A stretch of DNA of 64,000 nt, taken from the NCBI GenBank assembly GCA_004211785.1, contig SHBX01000001.1, positions 310,001 to 374,000 of the forward strand, written 5' to 3'. The translations under genes and the position numbers were made by a program. Position 1 is the stretch's first letter, and each line of letters begins with the position of its first letter. Positions 33,855 to 48,202 of the stretch are shown one piece after another. Source of the DNA: Winogradskyella sp. Lineage in GTDB: Bacteria > Bacteroidota > Bacteroidia > Flavobacteriales > Flavobacteriaceae. The notes beneath the pieces were generated by a model. It ran no database searches. It was not told the DNA's origin and saw only the letters and a list, made by a program, of their open reading frames with translations.

Positions 33855-34718
33855 ATGCTCTTTTTTAAAAAAGTCTTTAATCATTTTTTTAATAGTAATA
33901 CCTTTCAAAAAGGAGCAGCTTTAGCTTATTATGCTGTATTTTCTATAATTCCAATATTAATTATAGTAATAGCTATCCTAGGAATTTTATTCGGAAAGCA
34001 AGCAGTTACTGGGGAGGTTTTTACTCAGTTAAAGGATGTATTAGGAGCAGATGCCGCTACACAGATTCAGAATATCATCAAAACCCATCATATAAATCAT
34101 AATTCAATTATAACTACTATTATAGGTTTTCTTACTTTGTTGTTAAGTGCTTCAGGTATGTTTAGTCAAATTCATAACGCATTTAATAGTCTATGGAGTA
34201 TTAAAGCAAAACCACGAAACAGTATTTTAAGATATTTCACAAAGCACTTGTCATCTTTTGCATTATTGATGTTAATTTTCTTTGTACTCATAGTCAGTAC
34301 TTCTGCTAGTACATTCTTGTTGCATCATTCAAAAGATTTACAGAAAAGTTATCAGATTTCATTTTTATATGAACATATATCCTCTTTGTTAGTTATTACG
34401 TTGTTATTCGCTTTGATGTTTAAATTTTTGGGAGATGCAAAAGTCCATTGGAAACCAGCTTTAATTAGCGGAGCATTTACAGGTTTATTATTTATGTTAG
34501 GTAAAGTTGGGATAGCAGTGGTTATTGGTAAGAGTCATCTTTCAACAACATTTGGTTCTGCTAGTATTTTGGCATTGGTAATGCTATGGGTGTATTATAC
34601 ATCACAAATTATTTTTTTAGGTGCGTCATTTTTAAAAATATTAAGTGATAGAATATGTTTGGAAATTATTCCTAATGATAATGCGGTTAAAATATTGCAA
34701 AAAGAAATTAATATTTAG
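33855..34718 (+). CDS. YihY/BrkB family membrane protein
   Basis: The 287-residue protein matches the YihY/BrkB family, once thought to be ribonuclease BN and now regarded as an inner membrane protein of unknown role. It shows [20 protein letters not shown], the [24 protein letters not shown] segment, and [20 protein letters not shown]. About six helices are present. Its stop codon overlaps the GTG start of queG by one base, so the two are translationally linked. Confidence 0.93.
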
Positions 34719-35644
34719 TGATTAACAACAAAACGAAATACACTGAACTTATCAAAGCCGAAGCCAAACGCCTCGGGTTTTTGTCTTGTGGTATAAGTAA
34801 AGCAGAATTTCTTGAAGAAGAAGCGCCAAGGTTGGAAGCTTGGTTAAACAAAAATATGCACGGCGAAATGCGTTATATGGAAAACCATTTTGATAAGCGA
34901 TTAGACCCTACAAAGCTGGTTGAAGATTCTAAAAGTGTAGTGTCATTGTTACTTAACTATTATCCAGAAAAAGAGCAAACCTCAGAGAGTTATAAATTAT
35001 CCAAGTATGCATATGGGACTGATTATCATTTTGTGATTAAAGACAAGCTAAAAGAATTACTGTATGTTATTCAAAATGAAATAGGAGAAGTCAGTGGTCG
35101 AGCTTTTGTAGACTCAGCACCTGTTTTAGATAAAGCTTGGGCCGCTAAATCTGGTTTGGGCTGGATAGGAAAGCATAGTAATCTATTAAGTCAAAAAACG
35201 GGCTCATTTTATTTTATTGCTGAATTGATTATAGATTTAGAACTGGAATACGATACTCCAACAACTGACCATTGCGGCACATGTACAGCCTGTATTGATG
35301 CCTGTCCAACAGAAGCAATAACAGAACCATATGTTGTAGATGGGAGCAAATGTATATCGTATTTTACTATAGAACTAAAAGAGAATATTCCATCAGAATT
35401 TAAAGGTAAATTTGATGATTGGATGTTTGGTTGTGATGTTTGTCAAGACGTTTGCCCTTGGAATCGTTTTAGCAAACCGCATAGTGAACCTTTATTCAAT
35501 CCACATCCTGATTTGTTAGCAATGACTAAAAAAGATTGGGGAGACATCACGGAAGATACCTTCAGAAAAGTCTTTAAGAAATCAGCGGTTAAGCGAACTA
35601 AATTTTCAGGGTTACAGCGAAATATTAAGTTTTTAAAACCGTAA
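34718..35644 (+). CDS. queG: Epoxyqueuosine reductase QueG
   Basis: QueG reduces epoxyqueuosine to queuosine in the wobble position of certain tRNAs, using cobalamin and two 4Fe-4S clusters. The 308-residue protein shows [31 protein letters not shown], and the cluster motifs [16 protein letters not shown] and [13 protein letters not shown]. The start is a GTG that overlaps the previous stop (TAGTG). The length is slightly shorter than the E. coli protein, as usual here. Confidence 0.96.
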
Positions 35645-35688
35645 TTAAATAACTTTACTTGTATAATTAAAACCTAAATATCTAATTC

Positions 35689-37518
35689 ATGCGTAATTTT
35701 ATTCTTTTTATTATACCTCTTTTATTCTTTTGTTGTGATAAGAATAGTTTGCAAGATGATATTTCAAAAATAGCTAGATTACATGATAAAGCATACAATA
35801 CAGTAAGTGATTCTGCATTAATTTATATAAAAGACGCCAAAATTCTTATTGAAAATAACAGTAAATTACCTGATACGCTTAGAATAGAAAACATTTTTAA
35901 AAAAGGGTATTATTACTTGCAAACAAATAAACTAGATTCTGCATCTTACTACTTCCACAGAACTATTGACCTAATAAAAGGAGCAAACAATAGAGAAAGA
36001 AATCGTGTTTATTTTCAGAATACTTGGGAAACAGATGAAAAGCTAGATAATTATAAGAATGCTATAAGTGCAGCTCAAAAATTAATTGATATATCTAACC
36101 CTATAGATAATAATAGTGACCTTTTATATGCTTTTAATTATTTAGAACGTGTATACCTAGAACTAGGGGACTTCGAAAAGTCTTTAAATTATAATACTTT
36201 GGTAAGTAATGCTGCGATAGATACAAAAAATATAGACATGTATGTTATTACAGCTAGCTCTAAAGCTATTACTAAATATTATTACAGTAAAAAAGTAGAA
36301 GCCTTTAAATTACTAGATAGTTTAAAATTAATTGAGTGTGGGTTAGATGCTAAGAGACAATTATTAAGAGCTTATGGAATTTTAAATTATCGTGAAGAAG
36401 AATATATTAAAGCTATTAAATATTATAAATTAGTTATTAATTTATCTAAAGAAATAGAATTAGAGGACTATAATTATAATATGTTAGAGTCTTATAATAA
36501 TATTTCTGAGGCTTATATTGAAGCTGAGAATTACCCAATTGCTAAAAAATATTTAGATTCAACTAAGTCCATAATAAAACCAGATTCTGATTCAGAATAT
36601 GTCCTTTTTTATAATGAGTTACGTTTTAGGTATAATTATAGGACAAAGAATAATGAAGATGAACTTTTGGACGAATACTTAGATTTATTAGATGAAAATA
36701 ATAAACAACACCAACAAAAAATTAATGAAGAGCTTATAGCTTTGACATTATCTAATGAAAAAGAGCAATTAGCAATTTTACAGAAAAATAAAGCAGAAAT
36801 TGATAAGCTTAAACTTTTAGTACTTACAAGTGTTTTAGGGTTATTAATATTTATAGGATATCTACTTTATAGACAAAGACGCTTTAAGTTTGAAAGGGAA
36901 GGTTTGAGAATGCAGCAACGTTTATTACGCTCTCAGATGAATCCGCATTTTATGTTCAATACCTTATCGGTAATTCAAAATCAAATTAAAGAAAGTAAAG
37001 AGCATGCATCAAATTATTTATTAAAATTTTCAAGGTTGTTGAGGCTCATTTTAGAAAATTCTCTGAATGACTATGTGCAAATTGAAAATGAATTAGAGTC
37101 TGTAAGAAAATATCTAGATTTACAATTAGTTCGCTTTCCAGATAAATTCAGTTATAACATTATTTTAGAAAATTTTGAAGAGGAAGATTTGTTATTTATT
37201 CCACCAATGCTTATTCAGCCCTTTGTAGAAAATAGTATTGAACATGGCTTTATAGGAATCAATTATAAAGGAGTAATCAATATAAAATTATCATTACAAG
37301 ATAAATGGATATCTTGCGTAATCGAAGACAATGGAATAGGTCTGAAAGCACCCGATTCTAAACTAAAAGGTTCTGTGTCCGTAGACCTAATTTCAAAGTT
37401 TATTCTTAAAACAACAAAACAAAAAATTAGTATTACAGATAGAGAAACTGAGAGCCATAACACATCAGGTGTATTAGTAAATTTTTTAATTCCATATAAA
37501 TTTTCAGAACATGATTAA
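35689..37518 (+). CDS. TPR-containing LytS-type sensor histidine kinase
   Basis: This 609-residue sensor has an N-terminal signal or lipoprotein-like stretch (IIPLLFFCC), a TPR-rich helical region up to about residue 340, and a coiled coil. One membrane helix (about 373-392, VLTSVLGLLIFIGYLLYRQR) precedes a cytoplasmic His_kinase domain. His420 is in RSQMNPHFMFNTL, the N box is PPMLIQPFVENSIEHGF and the G box IEDNGIGLKAP. The gene overlaps the response regulator by 8 nt. The ligand is unknown. The gene is visibly more AT-rich than the housekeeping block before it. It sits just upstream of the peptide-export cassette, which suggests but does not prove control of that cassette. Confidence 0.93.
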   Translation: MRNFILFIIPLLFFCCDKNSLQDDISKIARLHDKAYNTVSDSALIYIKDAKILIENNSKLPDTLRIENIFKKGYYYLQTNKLDSASYYFHRTIDLIKGANNRERNRVYFQNTWETDEKLDNYKNAISAAQKLIDISNPIDNNSDLLYAFNYLERVYLELGDFEKSLNYNTLVSNAAIDTKNIDMYVITASSKAITKYYYSKKVEAFKLLDSLKLIECGLDAKRQLLRAYGILNYREEEYIKAIKYYKLVINLSKEIELEDYNYNMLESYNNISEAYIEAENYPIAKKYLDSTKSIIKPDSDSEYVLFYNELRFRYNYRTKNNEDELLDEYLDLLDENNKQHQQKINEELIALTLSNEKEQLAILQKNKAEIDKLKLLVLTSVLGLLIFIGYLLYRQRRFKFEREGLRMQQRLLRSQMNPHFMFNTLSVIQNQIKESKEHASNYLLKFSRLLRLILENSLNDYVQIENELESVRKYLDLQLVRFPDKFSYNIILENFEEEDLLFIPPMLIQPFVENSIEHGFIGINYKGVINIKLSLQDKWISCVIEDNGIGLKAPDSKLKGSVSVDLISKFILKTTKQKISITDRETESHNTSGVLVNFLIPYKFSEHD

Positions 37519-38248
37519 GGCAATATTGGTAGATGACGAAGCTTATATCAGAGATGATATAAAGTCTAAGTTAGCTAATTATTTTATAGAAGATATAGAA
37601 ATTGTTGGTGAAGCAGAAAGTGTAGAAATAGCAGTTAAATTAATACAAGAAGAAAAACCAGATTTACTTTTTTTAGACATTCACCTCCAAGATGGTACTA
37701 GCTTTGATATCTTAAATAGAATTAATAATAAAAATTTTGATGTCATCTTCATTACAGGTTTTGACAATCACGCTATTAAAGCAATAAAAATAGGCGCATT
37801 AGATTATATTCTTAAGCCAATTGATGATAATGAATTTAAGCAAGCAGTTACTAAAGCAATTGATAGTTCAAAGCAAGAGTTAGACATTGAAAAACTAGTA
37901 GAAATCTCAAGTGAATATTTTCAAGGTGTTCAAAAAAAACGAATTGTTTTAAAGACACTTGAAAATGTATATGTCGTATATGAAGATGACATTTTGTATT
38001 GTAAGTCAGAAGGGAATTACACAACCTTTTATACTCAGAAATCCGAAAAAATATTAGTTTCAAAATCCATTAAAAAAGCATTAGAGCTTCTCTCTGACGA
38101 TATATTTATTCGCTGCCATCAATCATATCTAGTAAATAAAAAACATGTGGTTCGATATAATAAGCAAGGTGTGCTTATTATGAACTCTGAAGTAAAGGTA
38201 CCGGTTTCTAGTAGAAGAAAAGAATATGTAATTGACAAAATATTTTAA
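37511..38248 (+). CDS. LytTR-family response regulator
   Basis: The 245-residue regulator has a receiver domain with phosphoacceptor Asp56 (DLLFLDIHLQDG), a conserved FITGFDNHAIKAIKIGALDYILKP segment, and a C-terminal LytTR DNA-binding domain (about 145-240, YCKSEGNYTTFY, IRCHQSYLVNKKHV, VPVSSRRKEYV). LytTR regulators bind pairs of short direct repeats. It overlaps the sensor kinase gene by 8 nt and forms its partner. Its targets could be the lipoprotein gene downstream or the peptide cassette; I found no convincing pair of LytTR sites by eye. Confidence 0.95.
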   Translation: MIKAILVDDEAYIRDDIKSKLANYFIEDIEIVGEAESVEIAVKLIQEEKPDLLFLDIHLQDGTSFDILNRINNKNFDVIFITGFDNHAIKAIKIGALDYILKPIDDNEFKQAVTKAIDSSKQELDIEKLVEISSEYFQGVQKKRIVLKTLENVYVVYEDDILYCKSEGNYTTFYTQKSEKILVSKSIKKALELLSDDIFIRCHQSYLVNKKHVVRYNKQGVLIMNSEVKVPVSSRRKEYVIDKIF

Positions 38249-38358
38249 AAAAATCGAATATGAAATCAGTGCTTGCACTTATGAATTAAGAATCTTCAAA
38301 TTTGAATCTAAATTATTTAAGCTGGTTTTTTTTTTAACTTTAATAAAAAAATTAAATC

Positions 38359-39150
38359 ATGAAAGTTATATTAAAATTATCCCTCATTCTTTTATTGTTT
38401 TCCTGTTTTTATTCTTGTGAAACAGAAGAAATACAAGAAGATAATATTGAAACTAAATTATTAAGTAATAAAAGCCCTATTAGAGAAGAACTAGAGGTAC
38501 CGCAAGGGCTAGAAGAACCAATAGATTTAGAAAACAGAATGCAATGGATATCTTTTATGACTGTTCAAGTACTTTTAAGGAATAATGATGCAAGAGACCA
38601 ATTTCGAGATGAAGTATTGATTTCTGGCACTTCTAATGCTTTTCATATAAAAGCCTTACTTAATCCCGATGTGAGAAATGAAACATTCAAAGATGAGTTT
38701 AGAGTAGTGTTTTATCTTTACTACAACGAAAATGATGTCTGTGATGGTATTGGTAGACCAAGAGGTGGCCCAAAGCCACCAGGAAATATAGGCGGTGACC
38801 CATATGATCCAAATGCGCCCCCATCACCTTCACCTTTCGATTTATATCTTAGCTCAATCTTATATGATGACTGTCTAGAATTTTATTTACCAAATGGTTT
38901 TAACCCCTTAATAGGTATAGGTGGAACTGGCGGAATGGCTTTTGCTAAATCAACAGCACATCCACTAACTAACGCAACAACAAATATTGGATATCATCAT
39001 GTAAATTCCTGCCTTGTATCAGAAATAACTATTGATAATAGTACATTAGGCCCTATAATAGTAGTAAGACCATTAGCATTAGTAGCTGCAACTTTAAGTT
39101 GCTCCTACAATAACTATCCAGTTGATGACTTTGAAGATTTTTTAGAATAA
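38359..39150 (+). CDS. Lipoprotein of unknown function
   Basis: I do not recognise a family for this 263-residue protein. It has a lipoprotein signal (LILLLFSCFYSC, modified Cys at 16 or 20), an acidic stretch, and a helical segment (residues 55-100). A Gly/Pro-rich linker (GRPRGGPKPPGNIGGDPYDP) then leads into a C-terminal domain with several cysteines (DDCLEF, NSCLVSE, LSCSYNN). It lies 110 bp after the LytTR regulator and is closed off by its own terminator. Roles as a regulated target, a surface protein, or protection against the neighbouring peptides are all open. Confidence 0.75.
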   Translation: MKVILKLSLILLLFSCFYSCETEEIQEDNIETKLLSNKSPIREELEVPQGLEEPIDLENRMQWISFMTVQVLLRNNDARDQFRDEVLISGTSNAFHIKALLNPDVRNETFKDEFRVVFYLYYNENDVCDGIGRPRGGPKPPGNIGGDPYDPNAPPSPSPFDLYLSSILYDDCLEFYLPNGFNPLIGIGGTGGMAFAKSTAHPLTNATTNIGYHHVNSCLVSEITIDNSTLGPIIVVRPLALVAATLSCSYNNYPVDDFEDFLE

Positions 39151-39172
39151 TAAAACTAATTTCTAATTATAT

Positions 39173-39209
39173 AAAAGGCCTCTTGACTAATATCAAGAGG
39201 CCTTTTTTC
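39173..39209 (+). terminator. Terminator after the lipoprotein gene
   Basis: AAAAGGCCTCTTGA pairs perfectly with TCAAGAGGCCTTTT around a 6 nt loop and T residues follow. It separates the two-component region from the peptide cassette. Confidence 0.94.
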
Positions 39210-39321
39210 TTTTTACAATAATTAACGAATTTGAAATAACCTATCACGCTTTTGAATCGGGCCTAGTATAGCATTTCTTTTTTCTTCAACTTTAATAAAT
39301 AATTATTTAAAGTATTTGGCT

Positions 39322-40941
39322 ATGAAAAGCGGTTTAGGGTATTTAGTACAGAAATTATTAAGTTATAATACTATTGCAATTGATAAGAACGAGCTTGAAT
39401 TTCAAATAGAAAGTCACCCATCTTATCCAAGTTTACATGCCATTACAGGTGTGTTAGACCATTTTAATGTAGACAACCTAGCATTAGACATACCAAAGAA
39501 TGAAGAAACTCTAGCTCAATTACCAAAAGCGTTTTTAACTCAGATAGAGACAATTAAAGGGAAGGAATTTGTTGTGGCAGTAAATAAGGGCCTTAATTAC
39601 CAACTTATCAATTCATCAAAAAAAGACAGATTAGTTACTATTAAAGAATTTTTAAAGCAATTTACAGGAATCATAGTTGGCGTCGAAAAAACTGAGTTTA
39701 CAGATGAGTCTAAAAAAACAAATCAGGTATATAGCCAGAGTTTAATAGGTTTATCAATTATAATTGTAATAGGTTTGGTTTATATGTTAAAACCGACTTT
39801 GCAATCAGTTTTATTTTTAACGACAAGTTTTCTGGGTCTAGTTATAAGTTTAGCTATTAAAAAACAAGAACAAGGAGAAGTAACAATGTTAGGGGACACG
39901 TTTTGTTCTGGTGAATCAGAAAAAAAAGATTGTAATGCTGTATTAGAGTCTAAAGGTGCAAGGGTATTTAATGACTACAAATTAAGTGATTTGAGTATTG
40001 TTTATTTCTTAGGACTCATTTCTACTACACTTATGCTTTCAGTAGCAAATCAAAGCATAACAATTACTCATATTATAAGTTTTTTGGCTATTCCTATAAC
40101 ATTTTATTCTATTTATTATCAGGGTGTTATTATAAAGAAATGGTGTTTATTATGTTTAAGTATAGTCGGAATTCTTTGGGCTCAAGCAGGTTTGTTTTTA
40201 ATAGATACTGATGTGCTAAATTCATTGGAGATATTATGGACTCCTGCGGCATTAGTACTTTCATGTTTCATTCTAACATTTACTGTATATCATCAGTTAT
40301 CATTAAAACTAAACGAATTAAATAGTCTTAAAAAGCTTAAAGTAGACTTCTATAAATTCAAAAGAAATTTTAAGCTTTTTGAAACTTTATTACAGAAATC
40401 GAAAGCATATAATACCATAGATAACCAAGATTTTCAAGGAATCCTTATAGGTAATCGAGAAGCTAAACTAAAAATAACAATTATTACTAATCCCTTTTGC
40501 GGGCATTGTAAACCAGTACATGCTTTAGTTGAGGATATTTATAAAAAATATGCCAAAGAAGTAACTATACAAATTTACTTTAATATCAATCCAAAGGATA
40601 AAGAGAGTAAGAGTACAAAAGTTGTTACTAGACTACTAGAGTTGTACAAAACTAAAGGGTTAGGTTTTTGTATGGACGCTATGCACAGTGTATATGAAAA
40701 TCAAGACACAAAACTATGGTTAGAAGAATTTGGCTCTTGTAATGATACAGAATATTTTAGTGAAATCTTAGAACAACAATACAATTGGTGTATAGAAAAC
40801 AGTATCAATTTCACACCAGAAATTTTAGTTAACGGTAAATCATATCCGAAGGAATATGACAGAGGTGATTTACTTTTATTTATTGAAGACTTATATGAAA
40901 ACTGTTGTGCAAATATAACAGAATTACAATTAACAATATAA
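39322..40941 (+). CDS. C39-like / VKOR / thioredoxin fusion protein of the peptide cassette
   Basis: This 539-residue protein joins three parts. Residues 1-125 look like a C39 peptidase domain without its catalytic cysteine (ESHPSYPSLHAITGVLDHF, FVVAVNKGLNYQLI). Residues 140-330 are a membrane VKOR domain with loop cysteines Cys195 and Cys204 and the CxxC at 275-278 (KKWCLLC). Residues 375-539 form a thioredoxin domain with CGHC at 393-396, placed outside the cytoplasmic membrane. VKOR passes electrons from thiols to quinone, so the protein should catalyse disulfide formation in exported peptides. The dead C39 part could bind double-glycine leaders. The ATG at 39322 is used instead of an in-frame TTG at 39316. 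The cysteine-rich peptides follow at once. Confidence 0.9.
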   Translation: MKSGLGYLVQKLLSYNTIAIDKNELEFQIESHPSYPSLHAITGVLDHFNVDNLALDIPKNEETLAQLPKAFLTQIETIKGKEFVVAVNKGLNYQLINSSKKDRLVTIKEFLKQFTGIIVGVEKTEFTDESKKTNQVYSQSLIGLSIIIVIGLVYMLKPTLQSVLFLTTSFLGLVISLAIKKQEQGEVTMLGDTFCSGESEKKDCNAVLESKGARVFNDYKLSDLSIVYFLGLISTTLMLSVANQSITITHIISFLAIPITFYSIYYQGVIIKKWCLLCLSIVGILWAQAGLFLIDTDVLNSLEILWTPAALVLSCFILTFTVYHQLSLKLNELNSLKKLKVDFYKFKRNFKLFETLLQKSKAYNTIDNQDFQGILIGNREAKLKITIITNPFCGHCKPVHALVEDIYKKYAKEVTIQIYFNINPKDKESKSTKVVTRLLELYKTKGLGFCMDAMHSVYENQDTKLWLEEFGSCNDTEYFSEILEQQYNWCIENSINFTPEILVNGKSYPKEYDRGDLLLFIEDLYENCCANITELQLTI

Positions 40942-40943
40942 TA

Positions 40944-40971
40944 GTAGAGCCCTTGATATCAAGGGCTCTAC
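40944..40971. repeat. 28 bp perfect palindrome after the VKOR gene
   Basis: GTAGAGCCCTTGAT is followed directly by its reverse complement ATCAAGGGCTCTAC. No T-run follows on either strand, so it is not a classical intrinsic terminator. It could stabilise the 3' end of the mRNA or bind a protein. Confidence 0.8.
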
Positions 40972-40981
40972 GCGTTGAACA

Positions 40982-41049
40982 ATATTCTCTCGCGAAGAAT
41001 AGACACAAACTGCGAGTGTCTCTAAATGTTCACAGCAAATATAATTTAT
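40982..41049 (+). promoter_or_regulatory. Repeated structured element, copy 1 (upstream of peptide 1)
   Basis: This 68 bp copy matches copy 2 at 65 of 68 positions. It contains the hairpins ATTCT-CTCGCGA-AGAAT and AGACAC-AAACTGCGA-GTGTCT, then TAAATGTTCACAGCAAATAT. It ends 13 nt before the peptide 1 ATG. On the minus strand GCAAATATA reads TATATTTGC, a good -7 box. The direction in which it acts is unsettled. Confidence 0.75.
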
Positions 41050-41062
41050 AAATAATTTAATT

Positions 41063-41281
41063 ATGAAGAATTTAAAAGAAATGGGAAAAGTTCTCAGTAG
41101 AGAAATTCAACAAAATATTTTTGGAGGTATTAGTGTAGGTAGTAGTAATTGTTATAGTTCTTGTCTTTCCGATGATCATTGTGGAGACCCAAATCATAGT
41201 TGTGTAGGATCTCCGTGTTTAATTATTGGAGAAGGATATTATGAACAATATCTATGTCGATGTACAAGTGGAAACGCATAG
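41063..41281 (+). CDS. Double-glycine leader peptide 1, seven cysteines
   Basis: The 72-residue precursor has a leader MKNLKEMGKVLSREIQQNIF ending in GG at residues 21-22, where a C39 exporter would cut. The 50-residue core has seven cysteines in the order C-x3-C-x5-C-x6-C-x4-C-x12-C-x-C and includes CGDPNHSC. Such leaders are known for bacteriocin-like and other exported peptides of the Bacteroidota. The spacing resembles a small disulfide-knotted peptide, though one cysteine must stay unpaired or bridge two chains. No modifying enzyme for lanthionines, lasso folds or radical SAM linkages is encoded nearby. Activity is unknown. The structured repeat element lies upstream. Confidence 0.85.
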   Translation: MKNLKEMGKVLSREIQQNIFGGISVGSSNCYSSCLSDDHCGDPNHSCVGSPCLIIGEGYYEQYLCRCTSGNA

Positions 41282-41340
41282 ACAATGTCAATATTCATTG
41301 ACTTGTAAAAAATAATATAAAGTCATTAAAGTTTTTAATT

Positions 41341-41550
41341 ATGAAAAATTTAAAAAGCATAGGAAAAGAGCTAGGTAGAAAAGCTCAACAAAATATTTTT
41401 GGTGGTATAATCAGTAGTTCGGGATGTTATAGTAATTGTACTAGTGGATCTTGTGGTGACCCGAATCATTATTGTAAAGAAAGTATATGCATTTACGATA
41501 ATATTGTACATATACAAAGTACATGTCAGTGTATAAGTGGCGTAATGTAA
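41341..41550 (+). CDS. Double-glycine leader peptide 2, paralogue of peptide 1
   Basis: The 69-residue precursor has leader MKNLKSIGKELGRKAQQNIF plus GG and a core with the same seven-cysteine order as peptide 1 (C-x3-C-x4-C-x6-C-x4-C-x11-C-x-C), sharing CYSxC and CGDPNH. Most other core residues differ, which is the pattern of a duplicated and diversifying peptide. It lies 59 nt after peptide 1, with only a weak GTCAAT/ATTGAC hairpin between and no copy of the structured element. The two are therefore probably cotranscribed. Confidence 0.83.
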   Translation: MKNLKSIGKELGRKAQQNIFGGIISSSGCYSNCTSGSCGDPNHYCKESICIYDNIVHIQSTCQCISGVM

Positions 41551-41598
41551 GGTTGATTGTTTTAAAAATAAAAATAGTACAAGAATGTATTTAAAAAG

Positions 41599-41672
41599 AT
41601 ATTCTCTCGCGAAGAATAGACACAAACTGTGAGTGTCTTTAAATGTTCACGGCAAATATAATTTATTAAAAT
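41599..41672 (+). promoter_or_regulatory. Repeated structured element, copy 2 (upstream of peptide 3)
   Basis: Copy 2 matches copy 1 over 68 bp with three changes, and copy 3 over 41626-41672 with 46 of 47 identical. It ends 7 nt before the peptide 3 ATG. The hairpin AGACAC-AAACTGTGA-GTGTCT is kept. Read on the minus strand, the TCGCGA hairpin is followed by ATCTTTTT, like a terminator. Confidence 0.75.
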
Positions 41673-41679
41673 TTTTAGT

Positions 41680-41871
41680 ATGAAAAATTTACAAAATTTA
41701 AAAGGTGCTAAGTCACTTAACAAAGAACAACAACAAGCTATCAACGGTGGTCAACCTGTGGGGTCAAGTGGTGCTTGTCATTCAGGTTGTCAATACTGTT
41801 TACCAACTCCTATAGGGAATGGTGTAACAATTTGGACATGCATTCCATGGGGAGATGGTCCAAAGCACTAA
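41680..41871 (+). CDS. Double-glycine leader peptide 3, four cysteines
   Basis: The 63-residue precursor has a 24-residue leader that starts MKNLQNLKGAKSLNKEQQQ and ends AINGG. The 39-residue core has four cysteines (C-x3-C-x2-C-x13-C) and is rich in Gly, Pro and aromatic residues (IWTCIPWGDGPKH). The leader clearly belongs to the same family as its neighbours, but the core is unrelated to peptides 1 and 2. A terminator at 41952-41981 ends its transcript. Confidence 0.82.
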   Translation: MKNLQNLKGAKSLNKEQQQAINGGQPVGSSGACHSGCQYCLPTPIGNGVTIWTCIPWGDGPKH

Positions 41872-41951
41872 TGCAAAATATAATAACCTGTAATACAATA
41901 GTATTAAGATTTACATACAAATTAATTAGTAAGTAAGACACAGGTTATTTG

Positions 41952-41981
41952 CCAAGCCATCTGTAAAGATGGTTTGGTTTT
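41952..41981 (+). terminator. Terminator after peptide 3
   Basis: CCAAGCCATC pairs with GATGGTTTGG (one G-T pair) around TGTAAA and TTTT follows. A longer-range pairing of ATAACCTGT with ACAGGTTAT lies outside it. Confidence 0.75.
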
Positions 41982-41995
41982 AAAATTAGTGTAAA

Positions 41996-42080
41996 ATATT
42001 CTCGTAAAATTTTATTGATATACACAGACTCACACTGTGAGTGTCTTTAAATGTTCACGGCAAATATGATTTATTAAAAT
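41996..42080 (+). promoter_or_regulatory. Repeated structured element, copy 3 (upstream of peptide 4)
   Basis: The right-hand 47 bp (42034-42080) match copy 2 at 46 positions. The left part has changed, but a stem is kept in another form: ACTCACA-C-TGTGAGT is a perfect inverted repeat. It ends 7 nt before the peptide 4 ATG. Because a terminator lies just upstream, this region must contain or follow the promoter of peptide 4. Confidence 0.72.
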
Positions 42081-42087
42081 ATTAATT

Positions 42088-42294
42088 ATGAAAAATTTAA
42101 AAAATATAGGAAAAAGTCTAAATATAAAGGAACAAAAAAAAATCAACGGAGGTATAACTTCAGGATGCACTACTAACGCAGAACAATTATCTTGTGAGGC
42201 TGATTCTGGTAATTGGATTTCTACAGCCCACCGGCCTGGTAACAGGTTTTGTGATGGGTATTGTCAATGTGATTATTGGATTGATATTTTATAG
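42088..42294 (+). CDS. Double-glycine leader peptide 4, five cysteines
   Basis: The 68-residue precursor has leader MKNLKNIGKSLNIKEQKKIN plus GG. The 46-residue core has five cysteines (C-x8-C-x18-C-x3-C-x-C), the last three in CDGYCQCDYW. The C-x-C end recalls the CxC of peptides 1 and 2, while the rest of the core differs. It is the last peptide gene before the exporter, and a long hairpin without a T-run (42312-42341) lies between. Confidence 0.82.
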   Translation: MKNLKNIGKSLNIKEQKKINGGITSGCTTNAEQLSCEADSGNWISTAHRPGNRFCDGYCQCDYWIDIL

Positions 42295-42311
42295 TATTTA
42301 ATCCAAATTTT

Positions 42312-42341
42312 AGTAGTCGATTCATAATAGAATCGACTACT
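42312..42341. repeat. Inverted repeat between peptide 4 and the exporter
   Basis: AGTAGTCGATTC pairs perfectly with GAATCGACTACT around ATAATA. No T-run follows on the plus strand, so a processing or partial-termination role fits better than a full stop. Confidence 0.75.
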
Positions 42342-42380
42342 CATCAAAAAGACTTTATTATCCTTTTTACAAATTAAGCA

Positions 42381-44570
42381 TTGAAAAAATTCCCTTTTTA
42401 CAAACAAATAGAATCTAAAGATTGTGGCCCAACCTGCATCAAGATTATTGCCAAATATTATGGTAAAATTATTAATGCAGAACAGTTACGAAAACTTAGC
42501 GAAACTACAAGAGAAGGTAGTAGTTTACTGGGACTTAGTGATGCTGTAGAAAAAATTGGCTTTCATTCTGTTGGGGTTAAAATCTCTTATAACAAACTTA
42601 AAGATGTTCCATTACCATGCATTATTCATTGGAACAAAAACCACTATGTAGTTCTATACAAAATCAAAAAGGATATTATCTATATCTCAGATCCAGCACA
42701 TGGTTTAATCACGTACACAAAAGAAGAATTTATAAAACAATGGATAGGTAACAACGCAAATGAAAATATCGAAGAAGGCATTGCCTTACTATTAGAACCT
42801 ACGCCACTCTTTTATGATGAGGAATTTGATGAAGATGAAAAACAATTTGGGTTTAGATTTATTTCAAAATACCTCTTTAAGTACAAGAAATTTATAGTCC
42901 AGCTCATCATTGGATTGTTAGCCGGTAGTTTATTACAGCTTATATTACCATTTTTAACACAAAGTGTTGTAGATGTGGGTATTAAAAATCAAGATCTCAA
43001 CTTTATTTATCTCATATTAATTGCGCAACTATTTCTGTTTATAGGTAAAGCCGCTTTAGAAATTATAAGAAGTTGGATTCTCTTACATCTTAGTACAAGA
43101 ATTAACATCTCATTAATTTCAGATTTCTTTATCAAACTAATGAAGTTACCTATTTCATTTTTTGATGTTAAAATGACAGGTGATTTATTACAACGCATTA
43201 ATGATCATAGCAGAATAGAGCGTGTCTTAACAACATCGTCTTTATCAATGTTATTCTCATTCTTCAACCTCATTGTATTCAGTTTTGTTTTAGCATATTA
43301 TAGTCTTCAAATTTTTGGTGTTTTTCTTTTAGGAAGTATGCTTTATATAGTATGGGTGTTGTTCTTTTTCAAAAAACGAAAAAAATTAGATTATAAGCGT
43401 TTCTCCCAACTAGGCAAAGAACAAAGTAAGGTGATAGAACTTATTAATGGCATGCAAGAAATAAAATTGCATAACGCTGAAAAACGCATGCGTTGGAATT
43501 GGGAATTCACACAAGTTCGTTTATTTAAAATTGCTACTAAAAATCTTGCTTTAGAGCAAACTCAAAGTGTTGGCTCCAATTTTATTAACGAGCTTAAAAA
43601 TATGTTCATTACTATTCTCTCTGCTAAATTGGTTATTGATGGTGATATTACTTTAGGGATGATGCTAGCCATTACATATATTGTTGGTCAGCTTAATGCG
43701 CCTATTATACAATTAATAAACTTTATGAGAGATATACAAGACGCTAAAATATCTCTTGAGCGTTTAGGCGAAATACATAACAAGGAAGATGAAGAAAAAA
43801 TAGGAGATGATAAAATTACCGATATTCCTGAGAATGCATCCATCTCACTAAACAATATAACTTTTAGATATACTGGTGGATTAGAGCCAGTAATTAAAGA
43901 TTTGTCACTTCATATTCCAGCAAATAAGACTACTGCAATAGTTGGTGTAAGTGGTAGCGGTAAAACAACGTTAATGAAACTATTACTTCGCTTTTATCAT
44001 GTAGACAAGGGAGAAATTCAAGTCAATAACTTTAATCTTAATAATATTTCACAAAAAGTATGGAGAGAGCATTGTGGTGTAGTTATGCAAGAAGGTTATG
44101 TCTTTAATGATACTATAACAAACAATATAGCGGTTGGTCAAGATTTTATTGACAAAGAAAAATTGGCTCACGCCATTGATGTTGCCAATATTTCAGATTA
44201 TATAGATGGATTACCATTGGGTCTTAATACAAAAATTGGAACTGAAGGTTCGGGTTTGAGCACAGGGCAAAAACAACGCCTTTTAATAGCGCGATCTGTT
44301 TATAAAAATCCAAAATTCTTATTTTTTGATGAAGCGACATCTGCTTTAGATGCTAATAATGAGAAAGTTATTATGGAAAAGCTGAATACATTTTTCTCAA
44401 ATAAAACAGCAGTAGTAATTGCACATCGTTTAAGTACAGTTAAAAATGCACATCAAATTGTAGTATTAGACAAAGGGAAGATTGTCGAAGTTGGAAATCA
44501 TGAAACTTTAATTAAACAAAAAGGTAATTATTATAACCTTGTGAAAAATCAATTAAATCTAGGTAAATAA
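42381..44570 (+). CDS. C39-peptidase ABC exporter (bacteriocin-type)
   Basis: This 729-residue transporter cuts double-glycine leaders and exports the core using ATP. The N-terminal C39 peptidase is complete: Gln9, catalytic Cys15 (KDCGPTC), His88 (NKNHYVVLY) and Asp104 (SDPAHG). Six membrane helices follow at about residues 165-450. The nucleotide-binding domain has Walker A GVSGSGKTT (522-530), signature LSTGQKQRL (from 626), Walker B FLFFDEATSALD and IAHRLS. It starts with TTG at 42381; the C39 domain begins right there and no ATG fits. The HlyD-type gene follows after 2 nt. Confidence 0.96.
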   Translation: MKKFPFYKQIESKDCGPTCIKIIAKYYGKIINAEQLRKLSETTREGSSLLGLSDAVEKIGFHSVGVKISYNKLKDVPLPCIIHWNKNHYVVLYKIKKDIIYISDPAHGLITYTKEEFIKQWIGNNANENIEEGIALLLEPTPLFYDEEFDEDEKQFGFRFISKYLFKYKKFIVQLIIGLLAGSLLQLILPFLTQSVVDVGIKNQDLNFIYLILIAQLFLFIGKAALEIIRSWILLHLSTRINISLISDFFIKLMKLPISFFDVKMTGDLLQRINDHSRIERVLTTSSLSMLFSFFNLIVFSFVLAYYSLQIFGVFLLGSMLYIVWVLFFFKKRKKLDYKRFSQLGKEQSKVIELINGMQEIKLHNAEKRMRWNWEFTQVRLFKIATKNLALEQTQSVGSNFINELKNMFITILSAKLVIDGDITLGMMLAITYIVGQLNAPIIQLINFMRDIQDAKISLERLGEIHNKEDEEKIGDDKITDIPENASISLNNITFRYTGGLEPVIKDLSLHIPANKTTAIVGVSGSGKTTLMKLLLRFYHVDKGEIQVNNFNLNNISQKVWREHCGVVMQEGYVFNDTITNNIAVGQDFIDKEKLAHAIDVANISDYIDGLPLGLNTKIGTEGSGLSTGQKQRLLIARSVYKNPKFLFFDEATSALDANNEKVIMEKLNTFFSNKTAVVIAHRLSTVKNAHQIVVLDKGKIVEVGNHETLIKQKGNYYNLVKNQLNLGK

Positions 44571-44572
44571 TT

Positions 44573-45865
44573 ATGACAAATAATGATGTTGATATAGAAA
44601 TAAGAAGCGAAGACGTACAAGATATTCTTGAAACTGTACCTAATTGGATGATTAGATATGGCAATATGTTAGTTCTAGGGCTAATCATTATGCTACTATC
44701 TATATCATGGTTTGTGAAATACCCAGATGTACTATCTACACAAGCTGTAATAACTTCAGAATTGCCTCCTCAAAAAACATTTGCACAGATTACAGGTAAA
44801 ATAGATACTATTTTAACGAAAGATAGTCAGTCAATAAAAAAAGGAGATGTGCTTTCTGTATTAGAAAATACAGCCAATTTTCAACATGTGCAATTACTAA
44901 AGTCAATAGTAGATACTATAAAACTTAACAACAAGAGTTTTACATTTCCATTAGAAGAACTTCCTTTATTATTTTTAGGTGAAATTGATACAGAATTTGC
45001 ACTTTTTGAAAATAGTTATATACAATACCAATTAAATAAAAAACTCAAACCTTTTTCTAATGAACAAAGTGGGAATAGCTTTTCAAAAGCTCAATTATAT
45101 GCACGATTAAAAACACTGGAAACTCAAAAGAAAATCAATCAATCAGAACTAACTTTTCAGAAAAAAGAATTGGAAAGGCAGCAGCATTTATTTGATAAAG
45201 GCGTTATTGCCAAACAAACATTAGAATCTAAAGAGATAAATTATCTACAGGCAAAACGAAACTTCGCAAATATGGATGCTTCAATATCTCAAACAAGAGA
45301 AGCTATTAGCAATACTAAAACAAACGAAATTAGCACATCAATAAATCAGACTAAAGAAGAGATAAGCTTACTTAAAAATGTTTTTCAATCGTATAATCAG
45401 CTTAAAAGAGCTATAATAAATTGGGAAAGGACATATGCTATAGTTTCAGATATTAATGGTAAAGTTGCTTTTTCAAAACTATGGACAGAAAATCAGATTG
45501 TAAATCAAGGAGATTTACTGTTTACAATTATTCCAGAAAAGAATTCTAAATTTATTGCAAAGCTAAAAACACCTGCGCAAAACTCAGGTAAAATTAGCGA
45601 AGGGCAAACTGTTAATATAAAACTTGAGAATTATCCAGAAACAGAGTTTGGTTCTTTAAAAGGTAGAATTAAATCCATATCGCTTCTACCAGATGAAGAT
45701 GGATTTTATCTTGTTACAGTCTTATTACCAAAAACACTAATAACGTCATATAAAAAAGAAATTCCATTTAGATACGAAATGCGAGGTTCAGCAGAAATAA
45801 TAACTGAAGATTTGAGATTAATTGAACGTTTTTTTTATCAATTTAAACAGATAATAAAACGATAA
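44573..45865 (+). CDS. HlyD-family periplasmic adaptor
   Basis: The 430-residue adaptor links the ABC exporter to the outer membrane. It has a short cytoplasmic start, one membrane helix (about 33-52, MLVLGLIIMLLSISWFVKYP), a first lipoyl/barrel segment (AQITGKIDTILTKDSQSIKK), and a long coiled-coil hairpin (about 165-290). The second half contains INGKVAFSKLWTENQIVNQGDLLFTIIPE and a C-terminal beta-barrel. It lies 2 nt after the exporter gene and is the last gene of the cassette. No outer-membrane TolC gene is present in this window. Confidence 0.93.
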   Translation: MTNNDVDIEIRSEDVQDILETVPNWMIRYGNMLVLGLIIMLLSISWFVKYPDVLSTQAVITSELPPQKTFAQITGKIDTILTKDSQSIKKGDVLSVLENTANFQHVQLLKSIVDTIKLNNKSFTFPLEELPLLFLGEIDTEFALFENSYIQYQLNKKLKPFSNEQSGNSFSKAQLYARLKTLETQKKINQSELTFQKKELERQQHLFDKGVIAKQTLESKEINYLQAKRNFANMDASISQTREAISNTKTNEISTSINQTKEEISLLKNVFQSYNQLKRAIINWERTYAIVSDINGKVAFSKLWTENQIVNQGDLLFTIIPEKNSKFIAKLKTPAQNSGKISEGQTVNIKLENYPETEFGSLKGRIKSISLLPDEDGFYLVTVLLPKTLITSYKKEIPFRYEMRGSAEIITEDLRLIERFFYQFKQIIKR

Positions 45866-45885
45866 AATTATTAAGCACCAATCCT

Positions 45886-45893
45886 TATCTTTG
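45886..45893 (+). promoter_or_regulatory. Possible -7 element for maeB
   Basis: TATCTTTG matches TAnnTTTG and ends 23 nt before the maeB ATG. The -33 region has no clear TTG. Confidence 0.45.
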
Positions 45894-45916
45894 TCGCTTA
45901 ATTTAGTTTATAAATT

Positions 45917-48202
45917 ATGAGCAAGGAAAGTAAAAGACGCGAAGCATTAGTATATCATGCCAAGCCAACTCCAGGTAAAATAAAAGTTGTACCAACAAAA
46001 AAATACGCCTCACAGCGTGACTTATCTTTAGCATACTCTCCAGGTGTTGCTGAGCCCTGTTTAGAAATAGATAGAGACAAAGAAAACGTCTATAAGTATA
46101 CCACCAAAGGGAACTTAGTAGCCGTAATCTCTAATGGAACAGCGGTTTTAGGTTTAGGAAATATTGGACCTGAAGCCTCTAAGCCTGTTATGGAAGGTAA
46201 AGGTTTACTTTTTAAAATATTTGCTGATATTGATGTTTTTGACATTGAAGTTGATACTGAAAATGTAGATGAGTTTATAGAAACAGTAAAGAATATTGCA
46301 CCAACATTTGGGGGCATTAATCTTGAAGATATAAAAGCACCAGAGGCTTTTGAAATTGAACGTCGCCTAAAGGAAGAGTTAGATATTCCTGTAATGCATG
46401 ATGATCAGCACGGAACTGCAATAATTTCTGCTGCCGCATTATTGAACGCTCTAGAACTTGCAGAAAAAGACATAAAAGAAGTTAAAATTGTAGTCAGTGG
46501 CGCAGGTGCTGCAGCCATCTCATGTACAAGGTTATACCAAGCATTTGGTGCTAAACGTGATAATATTGTCATGTTAGATAGCAAAGGCGTTATCCGAAAT
46601 GATAGAGATAATCTGACCAGTCAAAAAGCCGAGTTTGCTACTGATAGAAAGATTGATACTTTAGATGAGGCTATGGTAGATGCAGATGTGTTTGTTGGGC
46701 TTTCTATGGCAGATATTGTAACGCCAGATATGCTTAAGGTAATGGCAGCAAATCCAATTGTGTTTGCAATGGCAAATCCAAATCCAGAGATTGGTTATCA
46801 ATTGGCATTAGACACAAGAGATGATATCATTATGGCTACAGGTCGTAGTGATCATCCTAACCAGGTAAATAATGTTCTTGGGTTTCCGTTTATTTTTAGA
46901 GGTGCATTAGATGTAAGGGCGACAAAAATTAATGAAGCCATGAAAATGGCAGCAGTTAAAGCCTTGTCTAGATTAGCTAAAGAACCTGTTCCTGAACAGG
47001 TAAATATTGCTTATGGAGAAACACGTCTGACATTTGGAAAAGACTATATTATTCCTAAGCCGTTTGACCCAAGATTAATAGCAGAAGTTCCGCCAGCTGT
47101 TGCAAAAGCAGCTATGGAAAGCGGCGTAGCCAAAGAACCAATTGAAGATTGGGAAAAATATCAGAATAGTTTATTAGAACGTTTAGGCTCAGATAATAAG
47201 TTAGTTCGTTTGTTACTAAATCGTGCCAGAACAAACCCCAAGCGAGTTGTATTTGCAGAAGCAGACCAATTAGATGTTTTAAAAGCTGCTCAAATTGTTT
47301 ATGAAGAAGGTGTGGCAATTCCTATTTTATTAGGTCGAAGTGATGCTATTGCAGAACTAATGGAAGAGATTGAATTCGATGCTGATGTGCTTATCATTGA
47401 CCCAAAATCTGATGAAGAGTTAAAGCGCAAGAATACTTATGCAGAAGCCTATTGGAAACAACATCAACGTAACGGAGTTACTAAGTATTCAGCAGAAAAG
47501 GTGATGCGAGAACGTAATTATTTTGCGGCAATGATGGTTAATGAAGGTGATGCAGACGCATTAATTTCTGGTTATTCTCGAAGTTATCCTAGTGTTGTAA
47601 AACCAATGTTAGAGCTTATAGGGATGTCTAAAGGTGTATCTCGTATAGCAACAACAAATGTTATGATGACACAAAGAGGGCCAATGTTTTTGAGTGATAC
47701 TGCGATTAATATAAATCCTTCTTCTAAGGATTTAGCTAAAATTACTCAAATGACATCTAATGCAGCCAAAATGTTTGGCATAGAGCCAGTTATGGCAATG
47801 ATATCGTATTCAAACTTTGGTTCTTCAGAGAATCAAACAGCAGAAAAAGTAAGAGATGCTGTAGAGTATCTTCACAGAACTTACCCAGACATGATTGTAG
47901 ATGGAGAGCTACAAGCAGATTTTGCTTTAAATTCTGAAATGCTTCAGGCTACTTTTCCATTTTCAAAATTAGCTGGTCGTAAAGTCAACACGCTTATTTT
48001 TCCAAATTTAGAATCTGCGAATATTACATATAAGATGCTAAAAGAGCTTAATAAGGCAGAGTCGATTGGACCAATAATGATGGGACTAAGAAAGCCAGCT
48101 CACATCCTTCAACTAGACGCAAGTGTAGATGAAATTGTAAATATGACTGCAATTGCAGTTATAGATGCACAAGAACGTGAAAAACGTAAGCTTAAAAAGT
48201 AA
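45917..48202 (+). CDS. maeB: NADP-dependent malic enzyme with phosphotransacetylase-like domain
   Basis: The enzyme converts malate to pyruvate, CO2 and NADPH, feeding gluconeogenesis and lipid synthesis. The 761-residue product has the malic enzyme N-terminal domain (SPGVAEPCLEI, GTAVLGLGNIGPEASKPVMEGK) and the dinucleotide-binding domain (VVSGAGAAAIS). A C-terminal phosphate acetyltransferase-like domain spans about residues 430-761; in MaeB proteins it senses acetyl-CoA. Length is typical. It restarts the conserved flavobacterial block after the peptide cassette and lies upstream of ruvA. Confidence 0.97.
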   Translation: MSKESKRREALVYHAKPTPGKIKVVPTKKYASQRDLSLAYSPGVAEPCLEIDRDKENVYKYTTKGNLVAVISNGTAVLGLGNIGPEASKPVMEGKGLLFKIFADIDVFDIEVDTENVDEFIETVKNIAPTFGGINLEDIKAPEAFEIERRLKEELDIPVMHDDQHGTAIISAAALLNALELAEKDIKEVKIVVSGAGAAAISCTRLYQAFGAKRDNIVMLDSKGVIRNDRDNLTSQKAEFATDRKIDTLDEAMVDADVFVGLSMADIVTPDMLKVMAANPIVFAMANPNPEIGYQLALDTRDDIIMATGRSDHPNQVNNVLGFPFIFRGALDVRATKINEAMKMAAVKALSRLAKEPVPEQVNIAYGETRLTFGKDYIIPKPFDPRLIAEVPPAVAKAAMESGVAKEPIEDWEKYQNSLLERLGSDNKLVRLLLNRARTNPKRVVFAEADQLDVLKAAQIVYEEGVAIPILLGRSDAIAELMEEIEFDADVLIIDPKSDEELKRKNTYAEAYWKQHQRNGVTKYSAEKVMRERNYFAAMMVNEGDADALISGYSRSYPSVVKPMLELIGMSKGVSRIATTNVMMTQRGPMFLSDTAININPSSKDLAKITQMTSNAAKMFGIEPVMAMISYSNFGSSENQTAEKVRDAVEYLHRTYPDMIVDGELQADFALNSEMLQATFPFSKLAGRKVNTLIFPNLESANITYKMLKELNKAESIGPIMMGLRKPAHILQLDASVDEIVNMTAIAVIDAQEREKRKLKK

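Follow-up and report, generated by a model that had tools for sequence, protein, structure and literature searches.

Known peptide export systems and the locus under study

The closest described relatives of the system considered here are the bacteroidetocins, double-glycine-leader peptides of the Bacteroidota, whose gene regions hold a C39-type exporter and, in most cases, a thiol oxidoreductase (Coyne 2019, PMC6671954). Bacteroidetocins A and B have a 15-residue leader, a 42-residue core and four cysteines, are accompanied by a gene for a five-transmembrane protein and show a migration shift consistent with disulfides (PMC6671954). The locus analysed here is a peptide-export cassette at positions 39322-45865 of a stretch of 64,000 nucleotides (the window) of Winogradskyella sp. 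DNA (assembly GCA_004211785.1, contig SHBX01000001.1, positions 310,001 to 374,000). It has in common with the bacteroidetocin regions the exporter, the double-glycine leader and an oxidoreductase, but differs in its several unlike cores, its leaders of 22-24 residues, an oxidase composed of C39-like, VKOR and DsbA-like domains, a structured RNA element, and in having no gene for a five-transmembrane protein; the available text of PMC6671954 mentions no RNA element. The cassette is genuine and widespread, and its general type, disulfide peptides exported by C39 transporters, is familiar. What looks new is the pseudoknot leader RNA ahead of most precursor genes, together with an oxidase that is probably inverted and guided by the leader.

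Single parts of the cassette also have described counterparts. The Synechococcus VKOR-thioredoxin protein (PDB 4nv5/4nv6) shares with the oxidase the VKOR fold and cysteines and a fused thioredoxin domain, but its alignment begins at its residue 21 with the second helix of the oxidase, that is, with neither the C39-like domain nor the extra first helix. C39 exporters of the PCAT type, such as PCAT1, differ from the oxidase in that its N-terminal domain is devoid of any cysteine. An inverted archaeal VKOR, that of Aeropyrum pernix, was reportedly described by Hibender in 2017 as serving disulfide formation in two compartments including the cytoplasm, and is not known to have any C39-like or peptide-export context. 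Among cis-regulatory RNAs, H-type pseudoknots are represented for example by the preQ1 riboswitches, with a short pseudoknot and conserved A-rich loops before the start codon; the window element is like them in form and differs in matching nothing in Rfam 15 and in being tied to one class of peptide genes. In the open-licence literature nothing was found joining VKOR, bacteriocin and C39 peptidase, or pseudoknots and flavobacterial bacteriocins; the available part of PMC10352776 mentions C39 exporters once, and neither VKOR nor thioredoxin.

Organization of the cassette and sampling of relatives

An open reading frame check of the window placed the oxidase, four precursors (P1-P4), exporter and adaptor all on the + strand, with no other open reading frame above 90 residues within 39150-45917. 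The cassette consists of the following features:

39322..40941, + strand: peptide oxidase (C39-like fold, transmembrane helix, VKOR, long TM5, DsbA-like domain)
40944..40971, + strand: perfectly paired stem-loop of 12 bp separating the oxidase gene from RNA element 1; no T run follows the window copy
40978..41045, + strand: RNA element 1, before P1 (87.2 bits with covariance model R1)
41063..41281, + strand: precursor P1, 72 residues, 7 cysteines in the core, leader ending in QNIFGG
41341..41550, + strand: precursor P2, 69 residues, 7 cysteines, a paralogue of P1 (57% identity)
41595..41662, + strand: RNA element 2, before P3 (R1, 89.1 bits)
41680..41871, + strand: precursor P3, 63 residues, 4 cysteines in the core
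42003..42070, + strand: RNA element 3, before P4 (R1, 57.3 bits)
42088..42294, + strand: precursor P4, 68 residues, 5 cysteines in the core
42381..44570, + strand: C39 peptidase ABC exporter, TTG start (Pfam C39 125, ABC membrane 112, ABC_tran 100 bits)
44573..45865, + strand: HlyD-type periplasmic adaptor, 2 bases after the exporter (HlyD_3 52 bits)

The first-pass annotation of this DNA, made from the letters alone, had described the four precursors with their shared leader and cysteine counts, the complete exporter triad C15/H88/D104 and the adaptor 2 nt downstream, all of which were borne out. It had overlooked the degenerate C39-like domain of the oxidase, the RNA element before P1, P3 and P4 and the kinase, LytTR regulator and lipoprotein genes upstream. 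With its triad intact and its C39, ABC membrane and ATPase domains present, the exporter is a C39 peptidase ABC exporter, a family that cuts double-glycine leaders. The source genome (2.9 Mb, 89.7% complete) holds no further C39 match except a weak one inside the oxidase gene.

Relatives of the oxidase occur in 29 of 199 Flavobacteriaceae genomes (E <= 1e-20). Around these relatives 39 stretches were collected, the window locus among them, with the exporter present in 26 and the adaptor in 25. No other gene family appears in more than 8 of the 39 (a regulator in 8, a kinase in 5, a lipoprotein in 4, a few flanking families in 4-6) and, in line with the earlier remark that no clear immunity gene is seen, no dedicated immunity or RNA-binding gene recurs across them. 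In a separate scan, the single oxidase protein as query recovered no relative and alignment A4 proved too varied to yield patterns, but a closer alignment, A5, succeeded. The resulting set of loci from named genomes comprises the best 80 of 140 oxidase relatives, mostly from Tenacibaculum, Psychroserpens, Winogradskyella, Lacinutrix, Bizionia, Aquimarina and other Flavobacteriaceae, with a few metagenome-assembled genomes labelled Roseivirga, Saprospiraceae, Cyclobacteriaceae and Bacteroidales.

Structure and covariation of the leader RNA

The element, about 68 nt long, combines a hairpin (hairpin A) with an H-type pseudoknot, and one copy stands before each of P1, P3 and P4, the gene starting 17 nt downstream. 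Specifically, hairpin A is followed by helix S1 (6 bp), a 3-nt loop, the 5′ strand of helix S2, directly and with no linker the 3′ strand of S1, an 8-nt A-rich loop and the 3′ strand of S2. In element 1, S1 pairs 41001-41006 with 41016-41021 and S2 pairs 41010-41015 with 41030-41035, with a C.A at one of the six S2 pairs, and the 3′ strand of S2 ends 27 nt before the ATG of P1. Element 3 has a degenerate hairpin A and a single S1 mismatch. S1 and the loops L1 and L3 are conserved in sequence, S2 mainly in pairing.

Covariation supports both pseudoknot helices. Alignment A1, made with MAFFT and not fitted to the structure, contains 53 of 54 elements (L045:7628 excluded), 51 of them distinct, and pairs in 98.0% of cases at S1, 88.4% at S2 and 70.4% at hairpin A. 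It holds 121 double-change cells, against 38.8 +/- 7.5 in shuffled alignments, a value reached by 0/500 shuffles. All measures exceed those of shuffles and of slid partners; the number of pairs with double changes was reached by 5/500 shuffles, the other measures by none. Moreover, when the covariance model R1 was built without S2, at least 5 of the 6 S2 pairs formed in 49 of 52 distinct new elements (2000 shuffles: mean 28.7, maximum 37). In alignment A7, made of the best 150 of 201 R1 matches from the named loci (144 distinct), S2 reaches 96.9% pairing, each of its six pairs shows double changes, and one pair is split into 66 U-A and 59 G-C; double-change cells amount to 166 versus 48.2 +/- 4.9, and hairpin A pairs at 78.1%. 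Over S1 and S2, G-U exceeds A-C by 81:12 in A7 and by 40:9 in A1, which argues for a sense-strand RNA and not a DNA site.

The window region and the stretches of six relatives gave no Rfam 15 match at the gathering score, only matches far below it. No description of the element was found in Rfam or in the open-licence literature, and it is on this that we call it undescribed.

Distribution of the element

A loose pattern finds the element before 54 of the 76 precursors of the 39 cassette stretches. The GAC of the element is 59-65 nt upstream of the start codon in 52 of these 54 cases, and 57 and 75 nt upstream in the remaining two. In the genome of the window R1 gives three strong matches, those before P1, P3 and P4, and nothing else above 30 bits, with no match above chance upstream of P2. 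The element is present in 33 of the 199 family genomes and its occurrence follows that of the oxidase: 25 genomes have both, 4 the oxidase only, 8 the element only and 162 neither (Fisher 7e-21). Among the named loci, 72 of 80 have at least one match. A draw across the phylum gave 13 of 395 genomes at E<=0.001, 12 of them in the family and one in another, where the element also precedes a precursor.

The association with precursor genes is equally marked. In the fetched stretches, 125 of 140 distinct matches precede a double-glycine precursor as defined by rule, with the ATG 15-19 nt past the end of the model in 104 of the 125; in the named loci the figure is 182 of 199 matches (carried over from 201). 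In 35 outlying stretches (L107-L141, ~7-14 kb), 24 lack any relative of the oxidase, exporter or adaptor, so that many element-led precursors stand away from cassettes. The element is thereby a strong, sequence-only handle on this peptide class, finding precursors both inside and outside cassettes, and it raises the question of what a pseudoknot before most precursor genes senses or does.

Some observations concern individual copies. One genome (G059) has three cassettes (L035, L036, L037), differing in order and precursor sets, and 20 element matches genome-wide, several of them before lone precursors. Well-formed elements also stand before frameshifted or truncated precursor leaders (L038:4017, L040:7454, L137:4047 and others), suggesting precursor turnover. 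By eye, the element precedes lipoprotein-like genes at L120:4074-4601, at L180:4665-5471 and, in L059, before 4054 on the minus strand; these could be candidate immunity or partner proteins of the peptides. In addition, 44 of 70 distinct gaps between oxidase gene and element contain a stem of 7 bp or more without mismatch (50 shuffles: mean 1.0, maximum 4), often as CAAAGCCC...GGGCTTTG, which is perhaps a processing or 3′-end stabilising site.

Precursor peptides and their cysteines

The leaders of P1-P4 share the pattern MKNL...(E/Q)Q..I.GG, ending in IFGG in P1 and P2 and in INGG in P3 and P4. As this leader, joined to a hypervariable core, turns up next to the same genes across many genera, the precursor family is not due to chance. 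A regular expression applied to the 39 stretches gave 79 candidates, of which 3 were judged spurious and 76 kept. Together with the precursors behind the RNA element, the cassette set amounts to 312 distinct precursors of at most 130 residues, collected by rules that ignored cysteine; the leader ends in GG in 286 of them, and their cores fall into 188 clusters, 141 of which are single. Existing models appear to miss most of the class: TIGR04149 and PF14406 match 5 and 6 of 57 aligned precursors at E<=0.01, P3 reaches 17.2 bits with PF14406, under the cut-off of 25, and P1, P2 and P4 match neither.

The number of cysteines is even in 264 of the 312 precursors, odd in 46 and zero in 2 (264/310 of those with cysteine), and the excess holds with one precursor per core cluster (159 even versus 27 odd), as predicted by pairing into disulfides. 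The earlier proposal that disulfides are the only visible chemistry of these peptides thus gains support from cysteine parity. For the knotted products proposed with it the case is unproven, since the CC spacing of the classic knot is seen in 23 of 129 six-cysteine cores, and the model of the P1 core is of low confidence (predicted local distance difference test score, pLDDT, 66; best PDB match E 1.5). By eye, P1 and P2 resemble the six-cysteine frame of a few relatives, with a further cysteine added at the C-terminal end.

The oxidase and its membrane orientation

The oxidase comprises a C39-like domain (residues ~1-129), an extra transmembrane helix (133-155), a VKOR domain (157-303), a long TM5 and a DsbA/ScsC-like thioredoxin domain (359-538). 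The VKOR part has the loop cysteine pair and the CxxC in a four-helix bundle, and the six redox cysteines are invariant in 33 of 33 aligned proteins, in agreement with the first assignment as a VKOR/thioredoxin oxidase. A PDB query with the single VKOR-region sequence gave no match; a profile query did. The N-terminal domain has the C39 fold but not the catalytic cysteine: residues 1-130 of the window oxidase contain no cysteine, and the DCG motif occurs in 0 of 33 relatives. It is an inactive, C39-like domain of the leader-binding type. A cysteine near residue 4-5, which we take to be roughly the place of the catalytic cysteine of C39 peptidases, is kept in five distant relatives (L062, L063, L064 and two in L065), suggesting decay from an active protease.

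Two features bear on the orientation of this enzyme. In 33 of 33 relatives a hydrophobic segment lies ahead of the first VKOR helix (mean hydropathy 1.92, minimum 1.29), which gives the oxidase six helices. Moreover, in 32 of 33 oxidases (the exception being L039) lysine and arginine are denser on the side that carries the domains, a bias that runs the other way in 9 of 12 VKORs lacking the extra helix. The soluble domains and the redox site are therefore probably cytoplasmic, inverted with respect to ordinary bacterial VKORs, and the peptides would probably be oxidised before export. The first-pass annotation had the peptides cut, exported and oxidised: cleavage and export fit the double-glycine precursors and the intact C39 exporter, whereas oxidation after export does not agree with the helix count and charge bias.

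The most substantial alternative keeps that order of events, with a periplasmic oxidase of canonical topology acting after export and leader removal, and the C39-like domain put to some other use in the periplasm. Ordinary VKORs and DsbA/ScsC relatives are indeed periplasmic, PDB entry 4gxz is titled as such, the peptides end up outside, and three of the 12 ordinary VKORs share the charge bias of the oxidase. The canonical topology would nevertheless have to accommodate six helices in all 33 relatives, a charge bias opposite to that of the other nine VKORs, and an N-terminal domain of ~130 residues with, by eye, no signal-like stretch; in addition, the leader, its expected ligand, is present only in the cytoplasm. 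On balance we judge this alternative rather unlikely.

Proposed mechanism and its weak points

We consider it moderately probable that the cassette produces small disulfide-rich peptides, with cores that are diverse and change rapidly, from messages equipped with a structured leader RNA of their own, and that these peptides are oxidised in the cytoplasm, then cut and exported. Specifically, the RNA would act in cis on the precursor messages, at translation start or on message processing or stability, and the precursor cistrons may thereby be controlled apart from the neighbouring enzyme genes. The oxidase would then hold the precursor leader through its catalytically dead C39-like domain. Helix count and charge suggest that this domain faces the cytoplasm, as do the VKOR cysteines and the thioredoxin domain, and the core would be oxidised there. 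The electrons would pass to quinone in the membrane, as is known of VKOR chemistry. Finally, the active C39 exporter would cut after GG, with release through the HlyD adaptor and an outer-membrane channel supplied from elsewhere. The sequences themselves reveal the gene set, the fold of the RNA through its covariation, the redox cysteines, a dead N-terminal domain and the cysteine parity. A role against competing bacteria or as a signal would be the usual one for such peptides, and antibacterial use is suggested by analogy with the bacteroidetocins (PMC6671954).

If the oxidase is inverted, disulfide peptides would be folded in the cytoplasm before export, a departure from what is usual, and the enzyme might find use in making disulfide peptides inside cells. 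A bolder version of the proposal sees in the element a pseudoknot riboregulator of a new class, which may sense a ligand, on the messages of a very large pool of hypervariable disulfide peptides. An inverted VKOR-DsbA oxidase would recruit these peptides via its dead protease domain and fold them in the cytoplasm, cleavage and export coming only afterwards; this version we hold to be doubtful.

A number of observations weigh against the proposed mechanism. With respect to the distribution of the element, 22 of the 76 cassette precursors lack it by the loose pattern, P2 included. The oxidase occurs without it in 4 genomes and in 8 of the 80 named loci, the element without the oxidase in 8 genomes. 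In the fetched stretches 15 of 140 matches have no precursor by rule: 5 stand before short, atypical or broken precursors, 3 before lipoprotein-like genes, and one each before the oxidase itself, a large membrane-protein gene and a 775-residue frame (a weak match in the window's own genome), while 4 have nothing clear behind them. The same holds for 17 of 199 in the named loci, with 2 precursors of another cleavage pair, about 7 leader-like short or broken frames and 8 with nothing clear. No trans-acting factor for the RNA was found.

With respect to its structure, hairpin A pairs less well than the pseudoknot in both alignments and, once it is included, G-U and A-C become equal in A7 (139:138), the innermost pair of the hairpin being C.A in 106 of 144 sequences. 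Minimum free energy folding alone gave no support for the RNA (z -0.35, -0.38, -1.65). Moreover, the counts are of sequences, not of events, and many rows are related; as some named loci come from A1 genomes, the A1 and named-locus sets are not fully independent. With respect to the peptides, three of the four window precursors (P1, P2 and P4) have odd cysteine counts, atypical of the family. As for the oxidase, the charge bias runs contrary to trend in 1 of 33 and 1 of 10 oxidases, as well as in the three ordinary VKORs mentioned above. Positive-inside is a tendency and not a measurement, the cytoplasm is normally reducing, DsbA-like and VKOR domains normally face outward, and a cytoplasmic oxidase is an unusual idea.

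Neighbouring kinase, regulator and lipoprotein

Three genes stand directly upstream of the cassette:

35689..37518, + strand: TPR histidine kinase, LytS-like, a loosely linked neighbour (His_kinase 74, TPR_12 42 bits)
37511..38248, + strand: LytTR response regulator (LytTR 65, Response_reg 69 bits)
38359..39150, + strand: conserved lipoprotein after the kinase/regulator pair (alignment of 16: an invariant lipobox-type cysteine and 2 further cysteines)

The lipoprotein has no Pfam, NCBIfam or PADLOC match, and its family is present in 7 of the 199 family genomes. A TPR kinase, a LytTR regulator and 1-3 paralogous lipoproteins form a conserved set (window, L036, L043, L045, L171-L178) that also stands alone in the family. 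The set adjoins the cassette at 4 of 39 loci, the window included, and at one of 68 named loci; as it also stands alone and adjoins few loci, it was rejected as a core part of the cassette.

Its position suggests a second alternative, in which the adjacent TPR kinase senses the peptides as quorum signals, in the manner of the Gram-positive ComC/Blp systems. The set lies directly upstream here and at three other of the 39 loci, and 1-2 of 57 precursors show a weak leader resemblance to the ComC/BlpC models. The same kinase set is nevertheless found alone, including in two genomes (G096 and G156) where the oxidase search gave no match, and the single adjoining case among the 68 named loci also speaks against such a partnership, which we regard as improbable.

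RNA element or DNA site

The neighbouring regulator likewise prompts a reading of the element as DNA, that is, as an operator or promoter, for example for the LytTR protein. The element does contain interleaved inverted repeats, keeps a constant distance to the start codon and, in the window, lies close to the kinase and regulator genes. Several lines of evidence are at odds with an operator. The G-U excess in S1 and S2 is expected of a transcript, and R1 scores 13 bits on the minus strand versus 89 on the plus strand. S2 differs in sequence among the copies of one genome (L034, L035) and keeps its pairing. In addition, 80 of 308 elements begin at most 12 nt from the stop codon of a gene for the oxidase, exporter or adaptor, and 44 of these overlap that codon by 2-3 bases, leaving no room for a promoter between. 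Finally, the kinase, regulator and lipoprotein come together at only the few loci given above. A DNA operator is therefore very improbable, and the cis-acting RNA is preferred.

Least probable of all is a recombination site by which precursor genes would move as integron-like cassettes: hypervariable precursors, several per locus, elements starting at exporter or adaptor stop codons and the varying cassette order in the three copies of one genome (L035-L037) would suit it, but the site lies 5′ of the gene at a kept distance from the ATG, the pseudoknot with its G-U tolerance suits RNA, and no further gene family occurs in most cassettes (integrases not having been searched for as such).

Further observations

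The only other genome of the genus in the draw (n=1) gave no oxidase match and no element match. In the window, G+C is 26-32% from 34000 to 46000, which takes in the cassette region together with the preceding 5 kb, versus 37-38% in the next genes (46000-48000).

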